From positions 186,001 through 250,000 of the forward strand of contig UCAG01000016.1 in NCBI GenBank assembly GCA_900470285.1: a stretch of 64,000 nucleotides of DNA, read 5' to 3'. Source of the DNA: Hyphomicrobiales bacterium (lineage in GTDB: Bacteria > Pseudomonadota > Alphaproteobacteria > Rhizobiales > Rhizobiaceae). A program made the translations under genes and the position numbers. Below, one piece after another: positions 9,912-63,678 of this stretch. The notes beneath the pieces were generated by a model, which was not told the DNA's origin, made no database searches, and saw nothing but the letters and a program-made list of their open reading frames with translations. Every line of letters starts with the position of its first letter. Positions within the stretch are counted from its first letter, which is position 1.

Positions 9912-11525
9912 ATGGCTGTCAGCTCCAAACATATTCCCGCTCCTGATCTTTTCCCTGTGCGCCGCGCACTGCTCTCCGTATCGGATAAAACCGGTCTGGT
10001 AGACTTTGCCCGCGCATTGCACGCAAAGGGCGTTGAGCTTCTGTCCACCGGCGGTACCGCCAAATCCATCGCAGCAGCGGGTATTCCTGTGCGCGACGTT
10101 TCGGAAATCACCAATTTCCCTGAGATCATGGATGGCCGCGTCAAGACATTGCATCCGAGCGTTCACGGCGGCCTGCTCGCTGTGCGTAATGATCCGGAAC
10201 ATGTGGCAGCGATGGAAGCCCACAATATTACCGGCATTGATCTGGTTGTGATCAATCTCTATCCGTTTGAAGAAGTGCGCTATCAGGGCGGTGACTACGA
10301 TACCACCGTTGAGAATATCGATATCGGCGGCCCTGCGATGATCCGCGCGTCGGCCAAAAACCATGCTTATGTGACCATCGTCACCGATCCTAACGATTAT
10401 GACAGCGTAGTTGCCGAGCTGGAAACCGGCAATGGTTCCCTGCCTTATGCTTTTCGTCAGCGCATGGCCGGTAAAGCCTTTGCCCGTACCGCTGCTTATG
10501 ATGCCGCAATTTCCGGCTGGTTTGCTGAAACCACAAAGGAAGAAGCACCACTGCACCGCGCACTGGCCGGTAAACTGCATTCCGTGATGCGCTATGGTGA
10601 AAACCCGCACCAGCAGGCCGGTTTCTACCTGACCGGTGAAACCCGCGCCGGTGTGGCCACCGCCACCCAGCTTCAGGGCAAGCAGCTGTCCTACAACAAC
10701 ATCAATGATACAGATGCAGCTTATGAATTGGTGGCAGAATTTGATCCGGCGAAGGTCGCAGCCGTTGCCATCATCAAACATGCCAATCCGTGCGGTGTGG
10801 CTGAAGGTGCATCGCTGAAAGAGGCTTATCTCAAGGCCTATGCCTGCGATACAGTTTCAGCCTTTGGTGGTATTGTCGCTCTCAACCGTACACTGGATGC
10901 GGAAGCTGCTGAGGAAATCGTCAAGATTTTCACTGAAGTGATTATCGCACCGGATGCAACACCGGAAGCACAGGCCATTGTCGCCGCCAAGAAAAACCTG
11001 CGTCTGCTGGTCACTGGCGGTCTGCCGGATGTCCGCGCACCGGGCATTGCCGCTAAAACCGTTGCTGGTGGCCTGCTGATCCAGAACCGTGACAATGGCA
11101 ATGTTGATGATCTCGACCTTAAAGTCGTGACCAAACGCGCGCCAACCGAACAGGAAATGATTGACCTGAAATTTGCCTTCCGTGTTGCCAAACACGTCAA
11201 GTCCAATGCGATTGTCTATGTTAAAGACGGCGCAACTGTTGGCGTTGGCGCAGGCCAGATGAGCCGTATCGACTCTTCCCGTATTGCAGCGCGCAAGGCA
11301 GAAGATGCAGCAGCAGTAGCAGGCGGCGAACCACTGACCAAAGGCTCAGTTGTTGCCTCCGATGCTTTCTTCCCGTTTGCTGACGGCCTGATCTCGGCTG
11401 TCGAAGCCGGTGCCACAGCGGTCATCCAGCCAGGCGGCTCAATGCGTGATGATGAAGTAATTAAAGCTGCTGATGAAGCAGGCATTGCCATGGTCTTTAC
11501 CGGCATGCGCCACTTCCGCCACTAA
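9912..11525 (+). CDS. purH: Bifunctional AICAR formyltransferase / IMP cyclohydrolase
   Basis: Catalyses the last two steps of de novo IMP synthesis. 537 residues, normal. The N-terminal MGS/cyclohydrolase domain (about 1-200) has STGGTAKSI and [17 protein letters not shown]; the C-terminal formyltransferase domain has the catalytic [20 protein letters not shown] and [10 protein letters not shown], and it ends GMRHFRH. It is very close to the Brucella protein as remembered. The ATG at 9912 ([13 protein letters not shown]) is preferred to an upstream in-frame ATG at 9876, which lacks similarity; its ribosome site (AAAGAGA) is modest. A strong terminator follows. Confidence 0.98.
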
Positions 11526-11541
11526 GCTATATATCCGAACG

Positions 11542-11570
11542 AAAAAGGCGGCTTTTCAGCCGCCTTTTTT
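11542..11570. terminator. Bidirectional terminator after purH
   Basis: AAAAAGGCGGC-TTTTCA-GCCGCCTTTTTT, with A and T runs on the two sides. It sits between the convergent purH and UMF1-type transporter genes, 8 bases from the latter's stop. Confidence 0.92.
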
Positions 11571-11577
11571 ATTTGCG

Positions 11578-12972
11578 TTAAACAGGATTTTTTTCCGGAT
11601 AAGGCGTTCTGGCTGCCAGATATAAACCAGCCACGAAGAACAGTACCAACACTGCAATACCAAGGCGCGGAGAACCGCTCGCAGCCGTCATGCTCGCCAC
11701 CAGAAACGGGGCCAGAAAGCTGGTTGCGCGTCCGGCCAGCGCATAAATACCGAAATAGCGTCCTGCTTCATGCGGTTCGACACTGCGGGCAAACCACGAG
11801 CGGGAAGACGCCTGCACAGGCCCGAAGGCAATGCCAATCAGCATACCGAAAGCCAGATAGGCTTTTTCCCCGCCGGAGGAAAACAGTCCTGTATTACTGT
11901 CCGGCGGAAAATGAACCAGACCATAAAGCGTGTAATCCGGTCCCGTAGAAACAATACCCAAGGTAGCGATCAGCAACAGCACCAATGAAACAACAACCAC
12001 CCATTTGGAGCCGAACCAGCTATCGACATAGCTGGCAAACCAGCAACCGAAAATCGCCACGACATTGAGGATAATACCAAACAGACCAATCTCAGTGATC
12101 GACCAGCCGAACATGGCCGCAGCAAAACCGCCGCCCAGCGCCAGCAGTGCATTCACACCGTCCTGATAGATCATTCGCGCGATCAGAAAACGGAACAGAG
12201 CCGCTTTTTTGCGCACTTCATGCAGGGTTTCTTTCAACTCTGCCAGACCTTCGCCAATGGCGGCTTTCAGCCCCATGCCTTTTTCCTGATCCGGGGTAAA
12301 GATAAACATCGGCAGAATGAAAATCAGATACCACAGCGCGGCAATCGGCCCCGTAATACGGGCATCCTCACCTTTCAGAGCATCCAGCTGCCAGAGCGGC
12401 TCAATCCCGATCAGCGTTTTGCCTGTTTCCGGCGAGGCTGCCAGGCAGGTAACCACAAAGATCAGAACAATCATACCGGCGAGATAGCCAAGCCCCCATG
12501 CGAAATTGGAAACCTGCCCGATATGCGAGGCAGGGATTAGTCTCGGCATCATGGAATCGTTAAAAACGATAGAAAACTCTGCGGCAACGGAGGCGCAGAT
12601 GAAGGCCAGCAGAACCCAGACATAGCTTGATCCCGGCTCGGCATACCATAGCAAAGACAGGCTGATGATTTTGATAATGGCAAAGAAACCGATCCACGGT
12701 TTTCTTGCACCGGTTTTATCCGCAATAGAACCCAGTGCCGGAGACAGGATTGTGATGACGATACCCGCAAAAGCCACGCCATAGCCCCATGCCGCCTGCC
12801 CTGCGACCGGATCATCCGACATGCGCGAAATGAAATAAGGGCCGAAAATGAAAGTGGTGACGACTGTAAAAAACGGCTGAGCCGCCCAGTCGAAAAACAT
12901 CCAGCCCCAGATGCCTTTGTTCCACACGCTGTCATGCGCCGGTCGTTCTGCAGACGGATGTGTGATGCTCAA
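11578..12972 (-). CDS. MFS transporter, UMF1/Atg22-like family
   Basis: Inner-membrane protein of about 464 residues with around 12 hydrophobic segments. The opening KGIWGWMFFDWAAQPFFTVV and GSIADKTGARKPWIGFF mark the UMF1 (Atg22-like) branch of the major facilitator superfamily; the substrate is unknown (yeast Atg22 exports vacuolar amino acids). No in-frame ATG is near the start. A TTG at 12972 follows GGGGG at good spacing and is preferred; another TTG at 12996 would add eight residues and abuts a repeat at 12997. It is convergent with purH. Confidence 0.85.
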   Translation of the reverse strand: MSITHPSAERPAHDSVWNKGIWGWMFFDWAAQPFFTVVTTFIFGPYFISRMSDDPVAGQAAWGYGVAFAGIVITILSPALGSIADKTGARKPWIGFFAIIKIISLSLLWYAEPGSSYVWVLLAFICASVAAEFSIVFNDSMMPRLIPASHIGQVSNFAWGLGYLAGMIVLIFVVTCLAASPETGKTLIGIEPLWQLDALKGEDARITGPIAALWYLIFILPMFIFTPDQEKGMGLKAAIGEGLAELKETLHEVRKKAALFRFLIARMIYQDGVNALLALGGGFAAAMFGWSITEIGLFGIILNVVAIFGCWFASYVDSWFGSKWVVVVSLVLLLIATLGIVSTGPDYTLYGLVHFPPDSNTGLFSSGGEKAYLAFGMLIGIAFGPVQASSRSWFARSVEPHEAGRYFGIYALAGRATSFLAPFLVASMTAASGSPRLGIAVLVLFFVAGLYLAARTPYPEKNPV

Positions 12973-12996
12973 ATCACTGCCCCCAAAATCATTCAA

Positions 12997-13039
12997 GCGT
13001 ATCCCGAAAAGTGTGAAGCGGTTTTCGGATAAGATACGC
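12997..13039. repeat. Dispersed palindromic repeat family B, copy 1
   Basis: Inverted-repeat element beginning GCGTATCCCGAAAAG and ending TTTTCGGATAAGATACGC. The same motifs recur at 35474-35512 and 38954-39041. It resembles the RIME-type intergenic palindromes of Rhizobiales. It lies immediately upstream of the UMF1-type transporter gene. Confidence 0.75.
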
Positions 13040-13068
13040 GCAATAAAAAAGATAGCTTATTTAAAACA

Positions 13069-13095
13069 AAAGGGCCGGTTTAACACCAGCCCTTT
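13069..13095 (-). terminator. Terminator of the glutamate dehydrogenase gene
   Basis: Stem AAAGGGC.../...GCCCTTT with inner GGT/ACC pairing; read on the minus strand it is followed by TGTTTT. It lies 27 bases past the gdhB stop. Confidence 0.7.
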
Positions 13096-13121
13096 CTGTT
13101 ATGTCGTCAATCAAGCGATGA

Positions 13122-16100
13122 TCAGCCCGCAAGATCAGCCATGAAACCGGCTGCCACGGCCAGACGGGAAACGCTCAGATCTCCGCCTTCTGTCAGCGCA
13201 ATCATACGCTGACGCACACCGTCAATCCGCTCGGCATCACGGGTCAGCCAGCTCTGTACCGGATCGGCCTCACCTTTGAATTTGGTAAGCGCTTCCATCG
13301 TCACAGCACGAGTTGCCTGTGTGATTGTGTCTGTCGCACGCGACAATGCCAGACCATCATAATAATCCGTTACCGGTACGACAGATGCCGCTTTTTCAAT
13401 ATTGGCAATACGGAAAGCATCAACAATTTTGAAATAAGCAGTTGCAGCCGTCATCAGCTCTGCCTTGCCCTGATAGGCAATCAACGCAATATCCGCCATC
13501 AACTTAGCCGACTGCAGTCGGGCAAGTTTGCGCGCCAACGCTTCACCGGCACCTTTAGCGATATATTTTGCCGTATCTGCTGTAATCAGATCAGCAATGA
13601 AGTCAGGCATCAGCTCTTCGAGTTTTGGCTCCAGCGCCATGCGTGTCCGCTTCACCGCGCTGACCATTTCACTCAAAGTTGCATCAAAGCGGTTATTGCG
13701 CAGCACCCATGCGGTGGTTGAGAACAGCATTTCCCCGACCAGCGCATAGAATTCATTCTGTACTTTGCCCGGAATTTTATTATCCAGCGCATTGATCGCC
13801 TGATAGAGCTGCTCGGTTTCAAAACCATCAGCCACAGCCACATAAGACCGCAGAATTTCTGCCGGTGCTTCAGCTGTCAGATCATTCAAACGGCTGATAA
13901 ATGTCGGGCCACAACGATTAATCGCATCATTGGACAGAAGTGTTGCAATGATTTCGCGATGCAGACGGTGATGGGTAATATCCTTGGCAAAACGCTCCTG
14001 CATTTCCTGCGGGAAATAGCCGAACAGGCGTGAATGCAAATAGGTGTCATCCGGCAGATTGCTGGCGATCAGATCATCGGACAGTACCATTTTACCGTAG
14101 GCCAGAAGCACGGCCAGTTCCGGACGGGTCAGCGCCTCACCGCGTTTCTGGCGGTCTGCCAGCGCCTGATCATCCGGCAGATATTCCACCTTGCGATCCA
14201 GCAACTTGCGGCGTTCCAGAGACGACATCATCCGCATCAGATATGGCAGTTCGGATGCACCGCGTTTTTCAACAAGGGACAGAGCCAGCGGCTGCTCATA
14301 ATTATTATGCAGCACCAGTGCTGCCACTTCATCAGTCATCTGTGCCAGCAGCACATCGCGTGCTTCACGGGTCAGACGGCCATCCTGCAGGCTTGGCGTC
14401 AGAGCAATCTTGATATTGACCTCAACGTCCGACGAATTCACACCAGCCGAATTGTCAATCGCATCCGTATTACAACGACCGCCATTGAGGCTGTATTCGA
14501 TACGGCCACGCTGGGTGGCACCCAGATTAGCGCCCTCGCCGATCACCTTAGCGCGAACTTCACGACCGGTGATACGGATCGCATCATTGGCACGGTCACC
14601 AACCTGCGCATCATTTTCCTCATTCGCACGAATATAAGTGCCGATACCACCAAACCACAGCAGATCAACCTGCGCGCGCAGGATAGCACCGATTACTTCA
14701 TTCGGACTTGCAGTCAGTTTGCCCAGACCAATCGCCTCAGCTGCGGCTTCAGACAACGTAATGACCTTCTGCGAGCGGCTGAATACACCGCCACCGGCAG
14801 AAATTTTTGAACGGTCATAATCCTGCCAGCTGGAGCGCGGCACATTGAACAGACGCTGACGTTCCGCAAAACCGATATCGGTATCCGGCATCGGATCAAT
14901 AAAGATGTCACGATGATCAAATGCGGCCACCAGTTTGATTTTCGGCGACAGCAACATGCCGTTACCGAACACATCACCGGACATATCGCCCACACCGGCA
15001 ACAGTGAATGGTGTAGTCTGGATATCAATATCCATTTCGCGGAAATGGCGCTTTACCGCTTCCCATGCACCACGGGCAGTAATGGCCATTTTCTTATGAT
15101 CATAACCGGCAGAACCACCGGAAGCAAAAGCATCATCCAGCCAGAAATGCTGTGCCTGACTGATCGCATTGGCCGTATCAGAGAAAGTGGCTGTGCCCTT
15201 ATCTGCCGCGACCACGAAATACGGATCATCGCTGTCCTGACGGATAACATCAACCGGCGGCACAATCTTGCCTTCAATAATATTATCAGTGATCGAAACC
15301 ATGGTGGAAATGAAAGTAATGTAAGCAGCGCGTCCGGCTTCAAACACCGCATTGCGATCGCCACCAACCGGCAGACGCTTCGGATAGAAACCGCCCTTGG
15401 CACCACCCGGCACAATCACCGCATTCTTCACCTGTTGTGCCTTCACCAGACCCAGCACTTCTGTGCGGTAATCCTGTGCACGGTCAGACCAGCGCAGACC
15501 ACCGCGCGCCACAGCACCAAAGCGCAGATGAACACCTTCCACTTCAGGGCCGTAAACGAAGATTTCACGGTAAGGGCGTGGTTCCGGCAGCCCGTCTACG
15601 GCACGCGGATTAAGCTTCACCGCCAAAGTCACCGGCGCATTGCCTTCGCCGTCATGCATATAGGCATTGGTGCGCAGAGAGGCTTCAACCAGATTGCGGT
15701 AACGACGCAAAATCTGATCATCATCAATGCTTGGTACTGCCTGCAAAGCCGTTTCAATGGCTTCAACAACAGCACGCTCTTTCGCTTCTGTATCCGCCTG
15801 TTTGGCCAGTGCCGGATTAAAGCGCAGATCAAACAATGTGTAGAGATGGGTGGCAATGTCCGGATAACGGTTGAGCGCCGCAGCAATGAAATCCTGCGAA
15901 TAGGTAATACCGGCCTGCTGCAGATAACGCCCGTACATACGCAGGATCATAATCTGACGCGCTGTCAGACGTCCGCTCTGTGCAAGGCCATTATAACCGT
16001 CATTATCCGCCTGTCCGCTCCATACAGTGCGGAACACATCATCAAGCAAATCACCGTCATCGCTGAGATCAACGGCTTTGTCCGATGCGCTGACAATCAG

Positions 16101-56217: not shown

Positions 56218-56563
56218 ATGGATACATTTGCACAACGCCTACGAGCTCGCGCTAAACACAACTCGGCATCTCAAACACCGAAGCTGAAAGGCGATTCGGT
56301 TTAGCAAAATGTAGGTACGCACACTACGCTTCTGGTCGGCGAAAACCAAACTTGACGAAGCTCAAATCCATTCCCCCCTTTCAAAGCCCCCTAACTGGTT
56401 GCTTGGCGTGATAGATACCAGCGAGAAGGAACCTAAACAGGCAGATTTGATTGGGCGCTTTGCCAGCGCGGCTACTGACATGGCAATGGAAGAACTTTAA
56501 CTTTACATCATACAGGCCGAAGCGGTTATCGCAGCAAAAAACCTGAACGGGAATAAAGAATAA
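56218..56563 (+). pseudogene. Frameshifted XRE-family repressor, first gene of the defence operon
   Basis: From the ATG at 56218 the frame gives MDTFAQRLRARAK and then shifts; the next frame (from about 56259) gives QLGISNTEAERRFGLAK, then YAHYASGRRKPNLTKLKS, a Cro/CI-type helix-turn-helix; a second shift before 56390 gives NWLLGVIDTSEKEPKQADL, then a TAA at 56498-56500 and, in the same frame, LYIIQAEAVIAAKNLNGNKE to the stop at 56561-56563. That stop overlaps the hsdM ATG (TAATG), so the intact gene was the first of the operon. A C-run at 56373-56378 is a plausible place for the second shift. Confidence 0.75.
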
Positions 56564-58866
56564 TGGCTAACGAAGAATATTTGGACCGCTTCAAACGCGA
56601 AAATAAAGCCGCCTTCGATGCAAAAATCATCACTTTGGATGACGAAGAAAAAAACGTCATTTACCTTGCGCTTAACAAAAAATACCGTCTAAGTGACCCC
56701 GAAGAGTTTGTCCGTGCAAGCGCCTATGCATCCCTGATACTCGACTACGGGTATGCAAGAGAGCAGATTGATATTGAGTTCGCTGTTCCGCATCGTGTGC
56801 CAAACATTCATGCAGATATAGTCATATTCAAAGATAAAGGTCGGAAGACACCTTACATCGTTGTTGAGTGCAAACGTGAAGAGGCCAGCCAAGGGGAGCT
56901 AGACCAAGCTGTTGAACAGGGCTTTGGATATGCTAACTCGCTGAAAGCTGATTTTATGTGGATGACGTCCGGCATCCGCAATGATTATTTCAAGGTTTCG
57001 GGCTTCGGCGGCGTTGAACGTATCGAAAACCGAATTGCTGATCTTCCCAAGGAGGGCAAAGAAGAGGCTTCCCGCGCCAAGTATACCAAGGGTGGTAAGG
57101 ACGGTTTCGAGCTCGAGATTGTCGAAGAAAACGAACTGACACGGAAATTCAAACAGGCCCACGATGCCCTATGGGCAGGCGGTAAGCGTAATCCGTCTGA
57201 GGCTTTTGATGAACTCGACAAGCTTATTTTCTGTAAGATTTGGGACGAACGCACTAATCGTAAGCCCGGCGAACCCTACGACTTTCAAGTCTTCACTGAC
57301 GACAAGGGCGACGATTTGAAAAAACGTATCCAAGCGCTCTACCACAAGGGACGAGACAAAGACCCCGAAGTGTTTAAAGAAGATATCCGCCTATCAAACT
57401 CGGAACTACAAACCGTAGTTGGTTACCTTGCGGGAACGGACCTGGGCAAGACCGATCTCGATAGCAAAGGTCGCGCTTTCGAAACTTTCATGACCGGCTT
57501 CTTCCGGGGTGAGTTCGGGCAGTATTTTACCCCACGCAACATCGTTAAATTTATCGTCGATGCTCTTCCGATCAACCATGAATCTGTTGTGATCGACACA
57601 TCGTGCGGCAGTGGTGGCTTCCTGCTTCATGCGCTGGACAAGGTACGTCGCGAAGCTGATCGACATGCAGAAGATGGGTACTTCGATCTTAATACGCGCG
57701 AAGGTATGATTGCTCATCACAAGCATTGGCATGACTTCGCGGAAAACAACCTTTACGGCATAGAGATCTCCGAAGGCATCGCCCGTACCGCCAAGATGAA
57801 CATGATTATCCATGACGACGGACATACCAACGTCATCGCGTTCGACGGGCTTGAGCCTATCGACACCATGCGCGACCGGACAAAGAACCAAGGGTTCAAG
57901 GCGGGCAACTTCGATTTCATCATCACCAACCCGCCCTTTGGCGCAAAGGTCAAGCTGAAGGAAAAACGCTATCTTGAGGACTATGATCTTGGCTGCAAGG
58001 ACGTCGATTGGATCGATGCCAAGCTGAAGAACATCACCGTCAAGCAGAAGAAGGTAGGCGAAAAGGATTACATTCGCCGCACCTTCTTGGATAAGGCACG
58101 AGACCAACAGACTACCGAAGTGCTGTTCATCGAACAATGCCACCGTTTCCTTAAACCCGGCGGCTACATGGCGATGGTCATCCCGGATAGCATCCTGACC
58201 AATTCTAGCATGCAGTATGTACGTGACTGGATCGAAGAACATTGGCGCATTGTCAGCGTCGTTTCACTTCCGCAGTTCGCTTTCGCGGCCAACGGTGCAG
58301 GCGTCAAGAGTTCTGTTCTGTTCCTTCGCAAGCACGACGAAGCCACCACCATTGCCATTCAGCGCGCTAAAGAAAAGGCGCAAGACGCGATCCATGGCCG
58401 CAAGGATGGCGGAAAAGCGCTGGAAAAGTTGATTAAGGAAAAAGCGTCGAAACTGAAGAAGGGTGACGCCACCATTCAGCGAATCGACCAAGAGCTTGTC
58501 GCCAAGCTGGACGCGCTGAAGGCGCAAGGCACGTTGACGACGGATGCGAGCCGCAAGCTGAAGGGAGAAGCGGACAAAGCCAAGAAGGCCTATGAAGAAA
58601 CAGAAGCCTACCAGCAATGGAAAGCTGCAACGTCCGAAGAGTACAACGAGCGCATCGCCACTTTGCGCGAAACGCTCAACGACGAATTCCTGACCGAAGT
58701 GAAAGCCAAGGTCACCGATTATGAAATCTTCATGGCAATTGCGGAAGACATTGGCTACGACGCCACGGGACGACCGACCGGGGCGAATGAACTGGACACC
58801 GTTTCCTACGAATTGAGCCAATTTATCCAGCACATTGAAAGCGGGGTAGCGCACCCTTTTGCCTAA
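56563..58866 (+). CDS. N6-adenine methylase with N-terminal HsdR_N nuclease-like domain
   Basis: 767 residues. Residues 1-130 form an HsdR_N-like PD-(D/E)XK fold: Glu67, Asp85 in HADIVIF, and Glu102-Cys-Lys104 in VVECKRE. After a linker, an HsdM-type gamma methylase follows: QYFTPRNIVKFIVDAL (320-335), SAM motif DTSCGSGGF (345-353), GIEISEGIARTAKMNM, catalytic NPPFG (456-460), and a Lys/Glu-rich coiled coil (about 600-710). The fusion resembles BcgI-type type IIB subunits, where one chain holds nuclease and methylase and works with a separate S subunit. Whether the nuclease is active is untested. The start overlaps the XRE remnant stop. No hsdR follows. Confidence 0.9.
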   Translation: MANEEYLDRFKRENKAAFDAKIITLDDEEKNVIYLALNKKYRLSDPEEFVRASAYASLILDYGYAREQIDIEFAVPHRVPNIHADIVIFKDKGRKTPYIVVECKREEASQGELDQAVEQGFGYANSLKADFMWMTSGIRNDYFKVSGFGGVERIENRIADLPKEGKEEASRAKYTKGGKDGFELEIVEENELTRKFKQAHDALWAGGKRNPSEAFDELDKLIFCKIWDERTNRKPGEPYDFQVFTDDKGDDLKKRIQALYHKGRDKDPEVFKEDIRLSNSELQTVVGYLAGTDLGKTDLDSKGRAFETFMTGFFRGEFGQYFTPRNIVKFIVDALPINHESVVIDTSCGSGGFLLHALDKVRREADRHAEDGYFDLNTREGMIAHHKHWHDFAENNLYGIEISEGIARTAKMNMIIHDDGHTNVIAFDGLEPIDTMRDRTKNQGFKAGNFDFIITNPPFGAKVKLKEKRYLEDYDLGCKDVDWIDAKLKNITVKQKKVGEKDYIRRTFLDKARDQQTTEVLFIEQCHRFLKPGGYMAMVIPDSILTNSSMQYVRDWIEEHWRIVSVVSLPQFAFAANGAGVKSSVLFLRKHDEATTIAIQRAKEKAQDAIHGRKDGGKALEKLIKEKASKLKKGDATIQRIDQELVAKLDALKAQGTLTTDASRKLKGEADKAKKAYEETEAYQQWKAATSEEYNERIATLRETLNDEFLTEVKAKVTDYEIFMAIAEDIGYDATGRPTGANELDTVSYELSQFIQHIESGVAHPFA

Positions 58867-58913
58867 GCCCCGGCCTAGTTGAAGATCAATTCTTCAAGGT
58901 AAGCTGGGGCATC

Positions 58914-60290
58914 ATGCGGGATCGTTTTGATCCCCTTCCTTTTCAACCGTCTTTCTTCCTTCGTCGCCTGATAGGTAGTGGACGTCACGACTACGTGCGG
59001 TTTTCTCAAATCGCCAGCGGATTTCGAAACGGTTTTCCTATTGGGAGGGAGGAACAAGCAGACGAACCGACCAAAAATGTACAACTTAGACCCACAAACC
59101 TAGGCTCTGAAGGTGAATGGCTTTCGGAGAAGATAACGTACGTTCCTGAAGAATCAGTTCCCAACACCGCAAGAGCGGTAGCTGTTGGAGAAATAGTATT
59201 CAACAATACAAACTCACAACAATTGGTGGGAAAGACCGGCGTTTGGGACAGGTCTTTTGGCGAGAATGTCGTACTCTCGAACCATATGACGCAGATTGAA
59301 ATGAACGATGGCTACGATCCCGAAGTCTACGCCTATATCTTGAATGTCTATCGAAGCAACCGAGTGTTCTACAATCTCTGCACTAATTGGAATAATCAGT
59401 CCGGTTTTGCGGGCAACCGCTTGCGCGCTCTTCCACTTCCGAAATTAAAGGGGGCCGAACAAGAAGTTTTGGCCAATATCATTCTGGACAGTCAAAACAA
59501 AGCAAAGCAGCGTTTAAATGAAGCCGACGAGCTTCTTGCCTCGATCGACGACTACCTGCTTTCCGAACTTGGCATCGTGCTGCCACCCGAACCGGAAAAC
59601 AGCATCGACAACCGCATGTTTCGTACGAACTCCCATGGGCTAAGCGGTTGGCGGTTTGACGCACGGGTTCACCAATACGACTTCGCCTTGTCTTCGGGCA
59701 AGTTCACGAACGCACGCCTCGCGACCGTTTGCGCAATAAACCCGCGAACCGTCTTCCGTGGACCTACTGAAGCCGAGGACGTCAGTTTCATACCGATGGA
59801 TGCCATTTCGGATCGACTTGGCATCATCCAAAGACATGATACCCGGCCTCTTTCTGAGAACGTAGGCTACACTTCGTTCCAAGACGGTGACTTGCTTTGG
59901 GCGAAGATCACGCCATGCATGGAAAATGGAAAGTCCGTCGTCGTAAGTGGTCTGCACAAGGGATTTGGTTTTGGTTCCACCGAATACCATGTGTTGCGGT
60001 GCCCAGATGACCGACTTGATATTGGCTATCTACATGCGCTTCTCAGGATGCAGCGTGTTCGCAGGGCCGCCGTCCGGTTCTTCACCGGCGCTTCGGGACA
60101 TCAACGCGTAGACGCCGACTTCTTGAAGACTCTGGAAATTCCGCTTCCACCAATCGACTTGCAACGTGCGCTGTCTGCAGAAGTTCGCGACCGCGTTGCC
60201 AAGTCTGTTGCGCTAGAGGCTGAAGCACGCGCTGAACTTGATCGGGCTAAATCAGAAATTGAAGCAGTTTTGTTGGGGGATGCAGCATGA
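58914..60290 (+). CDS. HsdS-type specificity subunit
   Basis: 458 residues, two target recognition domains separated and ended by helical dimerisation segments. First TRD about 25-190 (ending NRLRALPLPKLKGAEQEVLA), first helix LDSQNKAKQRLNEADELLAS (about 195-225); second TRD about 240-410 (RTVFRGPTEAEDVSFIPMDA, LLWAKITPCMENGKSVV, TGASGHQRVDADFL, LEIPLPPIDLQRALSAEV), second helix to the end. It should give the methylase a bipartite target. It begins 47 bases after hsdM and its stop overlaps the next start (ATGA). Confidence 0.9.
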   Translation: MRDRFDPLPFQPSFFLRRLIGSGRHDYVRFSQIASGFRNGFPIGREEQADEPTKNVQLRPTNLGSEGEWLSEKITYVPEESVPNTARAVAVGEIVFNNTNSQQLVGKTGVWDRSFGENVVLSNHMTQIEMNDGYDPEVYAYILNVYRSNRVFYNLCTNWNNQSGFAGNRLRALPLPKLKGAEQEVLANIILDSQNKAKQRLNEADELLASIDDYLLSELGIVLPPEPENSIDNRMFRTNSHGLSGWRFDARVHQYDFALSSGKFTNARLATVCAINPRTVFRGPTEAEDVSFIPMDAISDRLGIIQRHDTRPLSENVGYTSFQDGDLLWAKITPCMENGKSVVVSGLHKGFGFGSTEYHVLRCPDDRLDIGYLHALLRMQRVRRAAVRFFTGASGHQRVDADFLKTLEIPLPPIDLQRALSAEVRDRVAKSVALEAEARAELDRAKSEIEAVLLGDAA

Positions 60291-61777
60291 GTACGGTCTT
60301 CAGTGGTGCCTTTGCTCCTTCCATCGGTGGCTTCTTGACCGTACGCGGCTATGCCCGGCTGATCGACATTGCCAAGTGCTCTTTCGCGGACCCCGCCTAC
60401 CAACGCGACTTGAAAACGGACCATGTGGAGGAAATCAGGAAGTTCTTCGACGACGGCGAATACCTCTTCTTCCCGGAAATCATCCTGTCTGTGCAACTGG
60501 ACGTGGACTACGACAAGGTGGGTGCCCCGTCTGGCGATCCGTTCCAACTGATCCGCGACGGCACCCCCTTTAAGTCAAACACCAACGGGCTGGACGTCAA
60601 GCCACGCAAGCCACGCTCGCCTTCTGACCTGACCCGCTACGAAATCACGGTTCCCGACGACGCCAAGCTTTTCAAGCGTATTGACGGCAACCATCGCCTG
60701 AGCGCCTTCGAAGCGCTAGAGGACATTGAGTTCGATCGCTACGTTGCGCCTTTTTGTCTAGTATTGTTTGGTAGTGCCAAGGATGCTCAGAGAAATGAAA
60801 AGGCACTGTTCCACAACATTAACTCAAAGGCGTGGCCACTAACATCCGAAGAGGTATTCAAAGGCATCATCGACGCACCAGAGGACTTCTCCGATAGCGA
60901 TCTGAGCGACCGCTTTGGATCAGAGTACCTTCAATGCCGCCAATTGAAGGACAGATTGGACTTCAACTACCTATCCAACCTGAAAGGCGTTTTTGGCAAG
61001 AACGAAGGGCAGGATGAATGCGCCCGTTCAGTGCTGGTACAGTCCTTGCAGGACATGGCCAAACAGCTAGGTAAAGCAACGCCCCCGACAACGGACGCCA
61101 TATTCGAAGCAATCAAGCGCATCAACGATACCTATAGCGACAAGCGCCTGAAAGCATCCACGGCGCAGGGACTATTCACCGCATTCCTGTTCTTCCAACT
61201 CAGCAGCGACCGCACATGCGGCACCTATGAGCAATTCACCAATTGGGTTCTGAAAACGCATCAATACGAGCTGCAGTCCATTCACGCCACCGACTTGATC
61301 AAGATTTTCGGCAAGATTGCCCAATCGCGCAAACGGCAAGTCTTCGTTTCGATGCAGTTCACTGACGACACCAAGCCCAACTTCGAAGCAATCAAAAGTG
61401 CAGTCGATGACCTAAACAAAGCCCATGATCTAGACATAGCCATACGCCCGATACGCATTGACCAGTTTGACACGGGGTTTTCGTATGAAATAAATGCCGA
61501 AGTGCTGCGTCTCATAGAAGACTCGGGGCTTCTCATCGCGGACCTGACCCACGGAAATAAAAACGTCTATCATGAAATCGGCTATCTCATGGGCTTGAAC
61601 CAAGGCAAAGGACTTGAGCACGAGAACTTCCTTCTCATCCACAATGATTCAATCGGCGGCGTAAAGAAGGACATTGGCTTCAACATCGCCGGTATCAAGC
61701 AATTGCGTCTGAATGACACCAATGCGCTACGCGAAGCGGTAAAAGAACAAGTTTCCAAATTTTACGGACTGGCTTGA
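60287..61777 (+). CDS. DGQHR-like (DndB-related) protein fused to NDT/TIR-like domain
   Basis: 496 residues, two parts. The N-terminal ParB/DndB-like domain has SFADPAYQRDL (33-42), RIDGNHRLSAFEAL with DGNHR (133-137) in place of DGQHR, and ALFHNINSKAWPLTSEEV (173-190). The C-terminal domain (about 349-496) opens RQVFVSMQF, contains IDQFDTGFSYEINAEVLRLI and LIADLTHGNKNVYHEIGYLM with a candidate catalytic Glu430; this is the pattern of nucleoside-2-deoxyribosyltransferase-like and TIR-like domains that cleave N-glycosidic bonds of nucleotides such as NAD. Fold and activity are inferred from motifs only. ATGA overlap with hsdS shows tight coupling. Confidence 0.78.
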   Translation: MSTVFSGAFAPSIGGFLTVRGYARLIDIAKCSFADPAYQRDLKTDHVEEIRKFFDDGEYLFFPEIILSVQLDVDYDKVGAPSGDPFQLIRDGTPFKSNTNGLDVKPRKPRSPSDLTRYEITVPDDAKLFKRIDGNHRLSAFEALEDIEFDRYVAPFCLVLFGSAKDAQRNEKALFHNINSKAWPLTSEEVFKGIIDAPEDFSDSDLSDRFGSEYLQCRQLKDRLDFNYLSNLKGVFGKNEGQDECARSVLVQSLQDMAKQLGKATPPTTDAIFEAIKRINDTYSDKRLKASTAQGLFTAFLFFQLSSDRTCGTYEQFTNWVLKTHQYELQSIHATDLIKIFGKIAQSRKRQVFVSMQFTDDTKPNFEAIKSAVDDLNKAHDLDIAIRPIRIDQFDTGFSYEINAEVLRLIEDSGLLIADLTHGNKNVYHEIGYLMGLNQGKGLEHENFLLIHNDSIGGVKKDIGFNIAGIKQLRLNDTNALREAVKEQVSKFYGLA

Positions 61778-61788
61778 GGGTATAGGAA

Positions 61789-63678
61789 ATGGACGCAAAG
61801 GCGCACGATCTGAACTTCGTTCTTGGGCAACGGCAACAATGGGTCGTGCCTGTCTACCAGCGTCATTACGAGTGGGAAACGGACACGGACAAGCAAATCC
61901 CGAAGTTATGGGACGACCTTCGGGACAAGGCCGTAGAACGCCTGGAAAAAGACCGCAGGCCGCTACCTCACTATTTTGGAGCAATCATCTATGCCGAACC
62001 GGCAAAACAAGCTTTTGGCGTTGTTCCTCTTCGCTTCCTTGTCGATGGGCAACAGCGTATCACCACGTTTCAAATCGTCCTTGTTGCTATCCGCGAAGTA
62101 GCCCGCAAGCTCGACATAAAGCATCTTGTCGAAGTCACCAGCACTTACCTCTTCAATGACGAAAACAAAGGCATGAAGGACGCCGAAAAGGAGCGGTTCA
62201 AGCTTTGGCCTTCGTCGTACGACCGTGACTTGTTTCAGAAGATCGCGACTGAAAAATACGACGAAGTCGTAGCGTCGTTTACACCGCGATATTTTCATGG
62301 AACCGGGCGGATCAAGAAAGGTGGAACCCCAAAGCTTCTTCTCGCCTACCATCACCTTTACATCGAAATATCCGCTTTCGTAGACGACCGCGTAGAGATG
62401 GGCGAAGAGCCTGAAGCCGTGCTTGGTGCGCTACTTGAGGGCTTTCTTGCGGGATTTCAGATTGTCGTCATCCAGTTGGATGAAAACGACGATGCGCAAG
62501 AAATCTTCGCGTCGCTCAACGGACTTGGGAAGCCGCTCGCACCCTTTGACCTTATCCGTAACAGCATCTTCCATCGCGCACGGAAGCTTGGCGAAGACGA
62601 TGAAAAGCTATTCGATGGCCGGTGGAAACTCTTCGAAGAACCATTTTGGACAGAAGAAGTCCGGCAAGGCAGATTGAAACGCGCCCGTGCCGACCACCTT
62701 ATCGCACATACAGTCGTTGCGGAGACCGCAAGGGACGCCAACATCGGCAAGATCGCGACCGAATACCAGCACTATGCGCGCGATCGCGCCTTTCCGACCG
62801 TGGCCGAAGAACTGGACGTACTCATCGGTCATGCCAAAAACTACCGGCTGCTTGAAAATGCCAAGGAAGATACGACAGTCGGTCGAATAGCCAATGTGTT
62901 GAAGATATGGGATTTGTCTACGTTCCATCCCTTCGTGCTTTGGGTACTCAGCAATGTGTCCGACGAAGGCGAACAAGGTCGAATCCTTGGGCTTATGGAA
63001 AGTTACCTCGTGCGCCGCGAACTGTGCGGCCTCACGACGAAGAACTACAACAAGGTCACAACAAGCTTCATCCGCGCCGCCAAGTCTGCGCCGGAAGCGT
63101 TCGACGCATTTAGCAAGCACATGGCGTCGATGACGGGCGACATATCGAAAATGCCAACCGACGCCCAAGTGAAGGAAGCAGTGCTACGCCGCAAAGCCTA
63201 TGCGGCTATTCCACCCTCCCGACTTCGTTTTATCCTTCAGAACGTGGAGTACGATCTTCGCGACAAATTCGATGAAGTGACCATAGCAACCTCAAACCTA
63301 ACCATCGAACATGTGATGCCGCGTAAGTGGGCCGAGAACTGGCCTCTTGGAGATGGAAGGACGGCTTCGCACGAATCAAGTTTCGAAGCGATGATTGCAG
63401 GCGTGCCGATGGATGATGCCATGAAGGCTTCAGTCGAAGCCCGCGCACAATCAGTCGATACGTTGGGCAACCTTACCCTTATCACCAGCGCACTAAACCC
63501 CAGCTTGGGCAATGCCGGTTGGGCGAAGAAGCGCGAAAAGCTGTCCGGTTCCCTGCTAGTGCTTAATCGTATGCTCGCGAAGATCGATGACTGGAACGAA
63601 AAGAGCATCGAAACGCGGGCAGACAAGATTGGCGACATAATCGTTTCACGTTGGAGTGCGCCAAAAATCGAAAAATGA
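61789..63678 (+). CDS. DUF262-DUF1524 protein (GmrSD/SspE-like)
   Basis: 629 residues. N-terminal DUF262: WVVPVYQRHYEWE (18-30) and FLVDGQQRITTF with DGQQR (86-90), the NTP-binding/DNA-sensing motif of GmrS and SspE. Middle helical part (about 200-490). C-terminal DUF1524 HNH: LTIEHVMPRKW (His508), DTLGNLTLIT (about 557-566) and NPSLGNAGWAKKREKL. Single-chain fusions of this kind are modification-dependent restriction enzymes (type IV GmrSD) or sensors of DNA phosphorothioation (SspE). It starts 11 bases after the previous gene (AGGAA ribosome site) and ends the operon. Confidence 0.92.
   Translation: MDAKAHDLNFVLGQRQQWVVPVYQRHYEWETDTDKQIPKLWDDLRDKAVERLEKDRRPLPHYFGAIIYAEPAKQAFGVVPLRFLVDGQQRITTFQIVLVAIREVARKLDIKHLVEVTSTYLFNDENKGMKDAEKERFKLWPSSYDRDLFQKIATEKYDEVVASFTPRYFHGTGRIKKGGTPKLLLAYHHLYIEISAFVDDRVEMGEEPEAVLGALLEGFLAGFQIVVIQLDENDDAQEIFASLNGLGKPLAPFDLIRNSIFHRARKLGEDDEKLFDGRWKLFEEPFWTEEVRQGRLKRARADHLIAHTVVAETARDANIGKIATEYQHYARDRAFPTVAEELDVLIGHAKNYRLLENAKEDTTVGRIANVLKIWDLSTFHPFVLWVLSNVSDEGEQGRILGLMESYLVRRELCGLTTKNYNKVTTSFIRAAKSAPEAFDAFSKHMASMTGDISKMPTDAQVKEAVLRRKAYAAIPPSRLRFILQNVEYDLRDKFDEVTIATSNLTIEHVMPRKWAENWPLGDGRTASHESSFEAMIAGVPMDDAMKASVEARAQSVDTLGNLTLITSALNPSLGNAGWAKKREKLSGSLLVLNRMLAKIDDWNEKSIETRADKIGDIIVSRWSAPKIEK

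Follow-up and report, generated by a model that had tools for sequence, protein, structure and literature searches.

The window analyzed here, a stretch of 64,000 nucleotides from a Hyphomicrobiales bacterium (assembly GCA_900470285.1, contig UCAG01000016.1, positions 186,001 to 250,000 of the forward strand), harbors an operon of four genes, g1 to g4, which are all present and uninterrupted between positions 56563 and 63678. Comparison with related loci reveals that the first three of them are linked beyond chance, and the operon possibly combines restriction with a self-destruct function of its own. The genes and the separately modelled domain of g3 are as follows (NDT, nucleoside 2-deoxyribosyltransferase):

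56563-58866, plus strand: g1, 767 residues; HsdR_N-type PD-(D/E)xK nuclease fused to an N6-adenine methylase, BcgI-A/MAD2-like
58914-60290, plus strand: g2, 458 residues; HsdS specificity subunit
60287-61777, plus strand: g3, 496 residues; DGNHR (DGQHR/ParB-Srx-like) domain followed by a C-terminal NDT/DNPH1/TIR-like domain
61307-61774, plus strand: N-glycosidase-like domain at the C-terminus of g3, modelled separately (model mc073505ff9ca)
61789-63678, plus strand: g4, 629 residues; GmrSD-family Type IV nuclease (DUF262-DUF1524)

A first-pass annotation of this DNA had placed the operon at 56218-63678 and described its genes as overlapping or nearly touching. While the four intact genes were confirmed, the operon starts at 56563, and position 56218 opens a broken regulator. 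Likewise, the ATGA overlap of g2 and g3 and the 11-base gap between g3 and g4 hold, but g1 and g2 are 47 bases apart, and the supposed TAATG junction consists of the last stop codon of the broken regulator set against the ATG of g1. The domain reading (nuclease-methylase, HsdS, a DGQHR-like protein with an NDT/TIR-like part, GmrSD) was borne out by Pfam, PADLOC, NCBIfam and fold comparison. The same applies to the stated lack of an HsdR translocase, as a Pfam scan detected no helicase domain in any of the four proteins.

Linkage of g1, g2 and g3 and the exchangeable fourth gene

Judged from their sequences, g1 and g2 look like a two-chain Type IIB restriction-modification enzyme, with nuclease and methylase combined in one chain, a separate specificity chain and no translocase, whereas the HsdR translocase of Type I restriction-modification is missing among the four genes. 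In Pfam, g1 matches HSDR_N_2 (57.4 bits) and N6_Mtase (110.8 bits), and its closest relative in the PDB is RM.BsaXI (E 2.3e-38), a Type IIB enzyme. The nuclease residues D85, E102 and K104 as well as the methylase motif NPPF at 456-459 (N456-PPF) are invariant in 14 of 14 aligned g1 sequences, an alignment that left out L015, L018, L107 and L109; the corresponding nuclease and methylase motifs are carried by the g1 of L109, too. The product of g2 is matched by the PADLOC model Specificity_I for Type I specificity subunits (E 2e-54). Because of these domains and invariant residues, marking and cutting of DNA are ascribed to g1-g2. To our knowledge, no Type IIB system with a DGQHR-NDT/TIR protein has been described. 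The one-chain nuclease-methylase, the separate specificity subunit and the absence of a translocase are features shared with BsaXI and with BcgI, whose layout is given in these terms in a passage of PMC4027205.

As an alternative, the operon could represent a reduced or divergent form of MADS (methylation-associated defence system), which equally contains an HsdR_N-methylase and HsdS with further genes alongside. Indeed, g1 is related to MAD2 (311.6 bits with NF047738, 175.8 bits with PADLOC mad2), and a weak match to MAD5 (29.8 bits) was obtained for g2. However, MAD2 requires 720 bits and MAD5 400, which leaves g1 far short of the former and g2 short of the latter. In addition, g3 has no mad match in PADLOC or NCBIfam, and g4 has none in NCBIfam; membership in MADS was rejected on these grounds. 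Moreover, mad3- and mad4-like genes are not among g1-g4; they adjoin a distant g1 relative in L051, where the two genes following the nuclease-methylase match mad3 (123.2 bits) and mad4 (27.5 bits) and g3 is absent. A reduced or divergent MADS is considered highly improbable.

Linkage was assessed in 20 g3 loci, comprising the window, 16 loci from a peptide-seeded scan of species genomes, and L018, L050 and L109. The genes g1, g2 and g3 occur in the same order and on one strand in 16 of them (window, L002-L007, L010-L015, L017, L050, L109), with g3 being damaged in L011 and L015 and g1 being partial in L015. Two of the remaining four loci lie at a contig edge (L008 and L016, the latter with HsdS kept), L009 has a truncated g3 with g1 and g2 absent, and on the Leisingera plasmid of L018 a piece of g1 is fused to the C-terminal part of g3 (10930-13173, annotated as N-6 DNA methylase) and HsdS is gone. 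The linkage extends to L109, a distant locus in which g1 is 30% and g3 26% identical to the window and both g3 domains are present. Pairwise distances across 12 loci correlate most strongly for g1 and g3 (0.953, compared with 0.633 for g2-g1 and 0.667 for g2-g3), and g2 is the most variable core gene (mean p-distance 0.71 vs. 0.40 for g1 and 0.50 for g3).

The variability of g2 is illustrated by L014 and L017, which share g1 (98%), g3 (96%) and a RhuM gene (90% identity), yet their HsdS proteins are only 31% identical, so that specificity has been cleanly swapped. That HsdS is replaced so freely while the rest of the operon stays constant argues that g3 by itself reads no single fixed sequence, and the constancy of g1 and g3 next to a varying HsdS suggests that g3 senses the complex instead. 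The swaps of HsdS and of the fourth gene around a constant g1-g3 would offer a natural experiment on what the putative effector needs and what it does not.

Many copies (L009, L011, L015, L016, L018, L107) display truncated or split g3 or a stop in g1, giving the impression of a system that is frequently lost, although sequencing errors in draft assemblies may contribute. In G525, the contig ends at g1, which contains a stop.

By its sequence, g4 belongs among the ordinary Type IV nucleases of the GmrSD family. It passes both Pfam cut-offs (GmrSD_N, 105.9 bits at a cut-off of 33.2; GmrSD_C, 87.8 bits at a cut-off of 23), carries DGQQR at residue 86 and an HNH-like EHVMP (EHxMP) at 507, and differs from known members in nothing notable. 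The first-pass annotation had regarded all four genes as a single system, with the methylation set by g1-g2 being read by g3 as well as by g4. This would fit the close spacing of the genes and the 86-88% identity of g4 in L002 and L004, loci with the same four genes. In 14 of the 17 loci with a readable flank (the count omits L015, L016 and L018), however, g4 is missing or another gene stands in its place. The fourth place is taken by GmrSD in three loci (window, L002, L004), by Mrr_N-Mrr_cat in two (L003, L009), by another Mrr_cat protein in three (L010, L011, L012; located upstream in L012), by RhuM in three (L014, L017, L050) and by a Bro-N protein in one (L005); no same-strand gene adjoins g3 in the other five (L006-L008, L013, L109). 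The assignments in L009, L011 and L050 derive from sequence comparison with L003, L010 and L014, respectively. Five of the fourth-place proteins are matched in PADLOC as Type IV enzymes or as PDC entries (phage defence candidates). The exchange is apparent between L002 and L003, which are 86% (g1), 80% (g2) and 85% (g3) identical, yet have GmrSD and Mrr, respectively, in fourth place. Conversely, g4 relatives occur without g3 in all three plasmid records inspected (of 23), two being solitary and one lying behind the HsdS gene in a Type I-like operon. A single four-gene system is therefore quite improbable and was dropped in favor of a core of three genes to which a fourth, exchangeable one is added. 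Of the co-occurrence originally proposed, the tight tie between g3 and g1-g2 stands, whereas that of g4 does not.

The two domains of g3

DGQHR proteins are defined, in a section of PMC4619093, by a QR pair, an FxxxN motif and the DGQHR pentapeptide. In g3, the QR pair and FxxxN are retained in 14 of 14 sequences together with D419, N426 and E430, and the pentapeptide reads DGNHR instead of DGQHR throughout. This set comprises the window, L002-L007, L010, L012-L014, L017, L050 and L109; L008, L009, L011, L015, L016 and L018 were omitted as cut or damaged. With the QR pair, FxxxN and a DG-x-HR pentapeptide, g3 resembles the DGQHR proteins DndB and DpdB and the related DUF262 of GmrSD and SspE. 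In contrast to these, it has DGNHR, remains below the TIGR03187 cut-off of 58.85 (44.2 bits for the window, 26.8 for L014 and 20.9 for L013) and is fused to an NDT/TIR-like domain. Its Pfam matches to DndB and GmrSD_N are likewise both sub-cut-off.

Since a full-length g3 model (13 sequences, mean predicted local distance difference test score, pLDDT, 76.6) gave no good fold match, the C-terminal domain was modelled alone with its relatives. The resulting model, built from 27 sequences (pLDDT 77.8; predicted template modelling score 0.79), was matched by Foldseek to human DNPH1 (E 5e-4), an NDT (2.1e-3) and the TIR domain of RPP1 (2.6e-3), which points to an NDT/DNPH1/TIR-like fold and a possible N-glycosidase activity. 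In line with this, the conserved glutamate E430 is found in 27 of 27 aligned C-domains, 17 of them outside g3, and Nuc_deoxyrib_tr is listed at E ≤1 for 10 of 10 C-domain relatives scanned, exceeding the cut-off in one. The PADLOC model 'Effector, TIR', a CBASS model, matches g3 of the window (E 0.0012), L012 (0.00044), L013 (0.0095) and L109 (3.8e-9), where it is the sole PADLOC match. The C-domain shares its predicted fold and the conserved glutamate with N-glycosidases such as Swarozyc DUF4062 and TIR effectors, but differs from them in that Pfam lists no family at E ≤1 for the C-domain of the window. The domains of the window and L014, both unmatched, and that of L012 (E 0.02) do not reach the PF05014 cut-off.

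An NDT-like fold could also point to DNA as the substrate. In this case, the DGQHR-type NTPase would guide a base-removing or base-exchanging NDT-like enzyme to DNA, much as DpdB works with DpdA, and the operon would modify or depurinate DNA. DNPH1, the best fold match of the C-domain, acts on deoxynucleotides. Furthermore, DpdB is a ParB-like ATPase which drives base insertion into DNA together with DpdA according to a passage of PMC12839542, and NDT domains in Abi proteins are proposed, in the relevant part of PMC3710099, to act on DNA much as ricin acts on RNA. On the other hand, no Pfam match to base-exchange or precursor enzymes is found among the four genes, the matches of the C-domain and its relatives are free-nucleotide enzymes, TIR effectors and CARF models, and the methylase and HsdS already supply a mark. 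Modification or depurination of DNA by g3 is considered unlikely.

A dedicated model of g3 is lacking in PADLOC 2.0.0, NCBIfam, Pfam and PHROGs, and no description of g3 or of this gene set was found in the open-access literature searched. The early statement that no named system has this gene set agrees with its absence from these four libraries, and a defence role, also claimed at the outset, is supported as likely.

A possible mechanism and its relation to known systems

With a probability of roughly 45%, we favor a three-gene immune core in which g1-g2 would cut and mark DNA, g3 would serve as an abortive back-up triggered through g1-g2, and g4 would be directed against modified DNA. The products of g1 and g2 would form a BcgI/BsaXI-like complex whose HsdS locates a split target; g1 would methylate this target in the host and cut unmethylated foreign DNA without the aid of a translocase. 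In g3, the DGNHR part (ParB/Srx-like) would bind and probably hydrolyze a nucleotide as a switch, and the C-terminal part would split the N-glycosidic bond of NAD+ or of a (deoxy)nucleotide and so halt infected cells. Within or beside the g1-g2 complex, g3 would be kept silent, to be freed once the complex meets unmethylated DNA or is disabled, in a PrrC-PrrI-like manner. Finally, g4 would be an exchangeable Type IV nuclease covering phages with modified DNA.

The effector role of g3 is proposed because of the predicted fold, the conserved glutamate, weak matches to TIR effectors and existing precedents. TIR-like NADases act in defence (PMC13174449), and ParB-superfamily DndB is mentioned as a possible nucleotide-degrading effector in one part of PMC10853773. 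In addition, a section of PMC3710099 deals with PrrC being guarded by PrrI and with Abi proteins whose N-terminal domain is joined to an NDT domain. The present operon has in common with PrrC-PrrI that an effector candidate is linked to a restriction-modification operon; PrrC, however, consists of a HEPN nuclease and an ABC NTPase, whereas g3 combines a ParB/Srx-like part with an N-glycosidase-like fold, and the connection to g1-g2 consists here of linkage and co-inheritance. As for the fourth place, GmrSD complements BREX (a passage in PMC12839542), and by analogy g4-type proteins may add the cutting of modified DNA.

Several points weigh against an abortive three-gene core. The linkage count is mostly g3-first: starting from g1, only three assessable loci with g3 or a remnant of it are available (G061, Leisingera, G1123). 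The peptide-seeded scan starts from exact short peptides and is no census, five of the 20 loci hold damaged copies (L009, L011, L015, L016, L018), and the g3 family is rare, full-length members being present in the genome of the window and one other out of 398 genomes sampled from its phylum. Regarding the fold, the full-length g3 model has no match at E ≤0.001, ParB-N being reached at E 0.23 only, and its confidence is moderate, with blocks of 44-67 pLDDT across residues 391-470. For the C-domain alone, the best Foldseek value is only 5e-4, and flavodiiron chains follow at 6.3e-4 and 7.2e-4. Moreover, L014 g3 is without any PADLOC match, and for the window g3 PADLOC ranks CARF2--CARF first (E 1.3e-5) and the TIR model behind it, a ranking that would suit a domain binding a ligand instead of catalyzing a reaction.

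The CARF match would thus favor g3 as a regulator or sensor, i.e., a brake on restriction that senses NTPs in the manner of DndB and whose C-domain binds a ligand but is not catalytic. For DndB, negative regulation that depends on ATP is described in a passage of PMC10853773, and a subunit or brake would suit the four-base overlap of g2 and g3 (ATGA or GTGA), which recurs in 8 of 8 junctions examined (from 8 of the 16 g1-g2-g3 loci). Together with the shared gene order, this recurrence speaks against a chance association of the three genes. Yet D419, N426 and E430 are kept in all 14 g3 sequences down to 26% identity, and E430 in all 27 domains, a degree of conservation that a pseudo-enzyme should not require. 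A regulatory g3 is considered rather unlikely.

A further-reaching and more tentative proposal is that g3 represents a new class of abortive effector, composed of a ParB/Srx switch and an N-glycosidase, which senses the state of g1-g2 rather than a sequence, and that the nuclease-methylase chassis is a general plug-in platform for effectors. Restriction-modification is usually viewed as cut-and-protect; in an operon where a BcgI/MAD2-like enzyme is coupled to a DGQHR-NDT/TIR protein, self-marking would be connected directly to abortive defence. If true, the recognized sequence could change with HsdS while the suicide arm stays constant, resulting in a dead-man switch on a translocase-free restriction enzyme. 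It would also assign a testable role to DGQHR proteins that belong neither to sulfur nor to deazaguanine systems.

Distribution and genomic surroundings

The operon is rare and patchily distributed. Among the 398 genomes mentioned above, six more contain matches to the C-domain only, and the L109 form was found in its own genome alone among 198 genomes of that family and in no plasmid. Relatives of g3 were detected neither in viral contigs (searched with alignment A1 and the L109 protein) nor in phage records. Hosts in the peptide-seeded scan are scattered and include, for example, Yoonia, Methylobacter, Giesbergeria, Anaerosolibacter and assemblies labelled Thermotoga and Gracilibacteria. The copies of L004 and L006 belong to the environmental strains Notoacmeibacter marinus and Methylobacter tundripaludum, respectively. 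Integrases, transposases or primases are located close to some g3 copies.

In the reverse direction, distant MAD2-like relatives of g1 (26-34% identity) are accompanied by g3 in none of 12 loci (11 of 12 distant hits, with G162 omitted, plus G015), on none of five plasmids examined among 14 distant records, and in none of nine further distant loci (L108, L110-L117); some of the contigs in these tests are short (L052, L053). The idea that g3 accompanies every MAD2-like enzyme was rejected, L109 being the only distant locus with g3. Therefore, g3 marks part of a larger family. Other partners occur elsewhere in this family, such as an AAA_21 protein in L053 and a protein of 263-272 residues behind HsdS in L055, L059, L062, L065 and L115. 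Copies of the latter share 31-61% mutual identity, with no Pfam match above cut-off and, in the three of five scanned, no PADLOC match. Together with the mad3- and mad4-like genes of L051, this variety of partners suggests that the nuclease-methylase chassis accepts different effectors across lineages. L065 is a Klebsiella plasmid, and two DUF262 genes follow there.

Upstream of g1, one further feature lies outside the conserved core:

56218-56562, plus strand: broken regulator of helix-turn-helix type (XRE-like), split into fragments over three frames and interrupted by stops

The XRE-like label is our own reading of these pieces and derives from no library match; no open reading frame of at least 80 residues is listed in this interval. 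Of the Trb genes initially noted next to the operon, the 10 neighboring proteins scanned include one, TrbI, which is encoded on the minus strand (L029:836-1945) and starts 157 bases past g4; another of the 10 is a serine recombinase at L029:5817-6902. With both genes situated downstream of the operon and close to the contig end, the region may belong to an integrated element.

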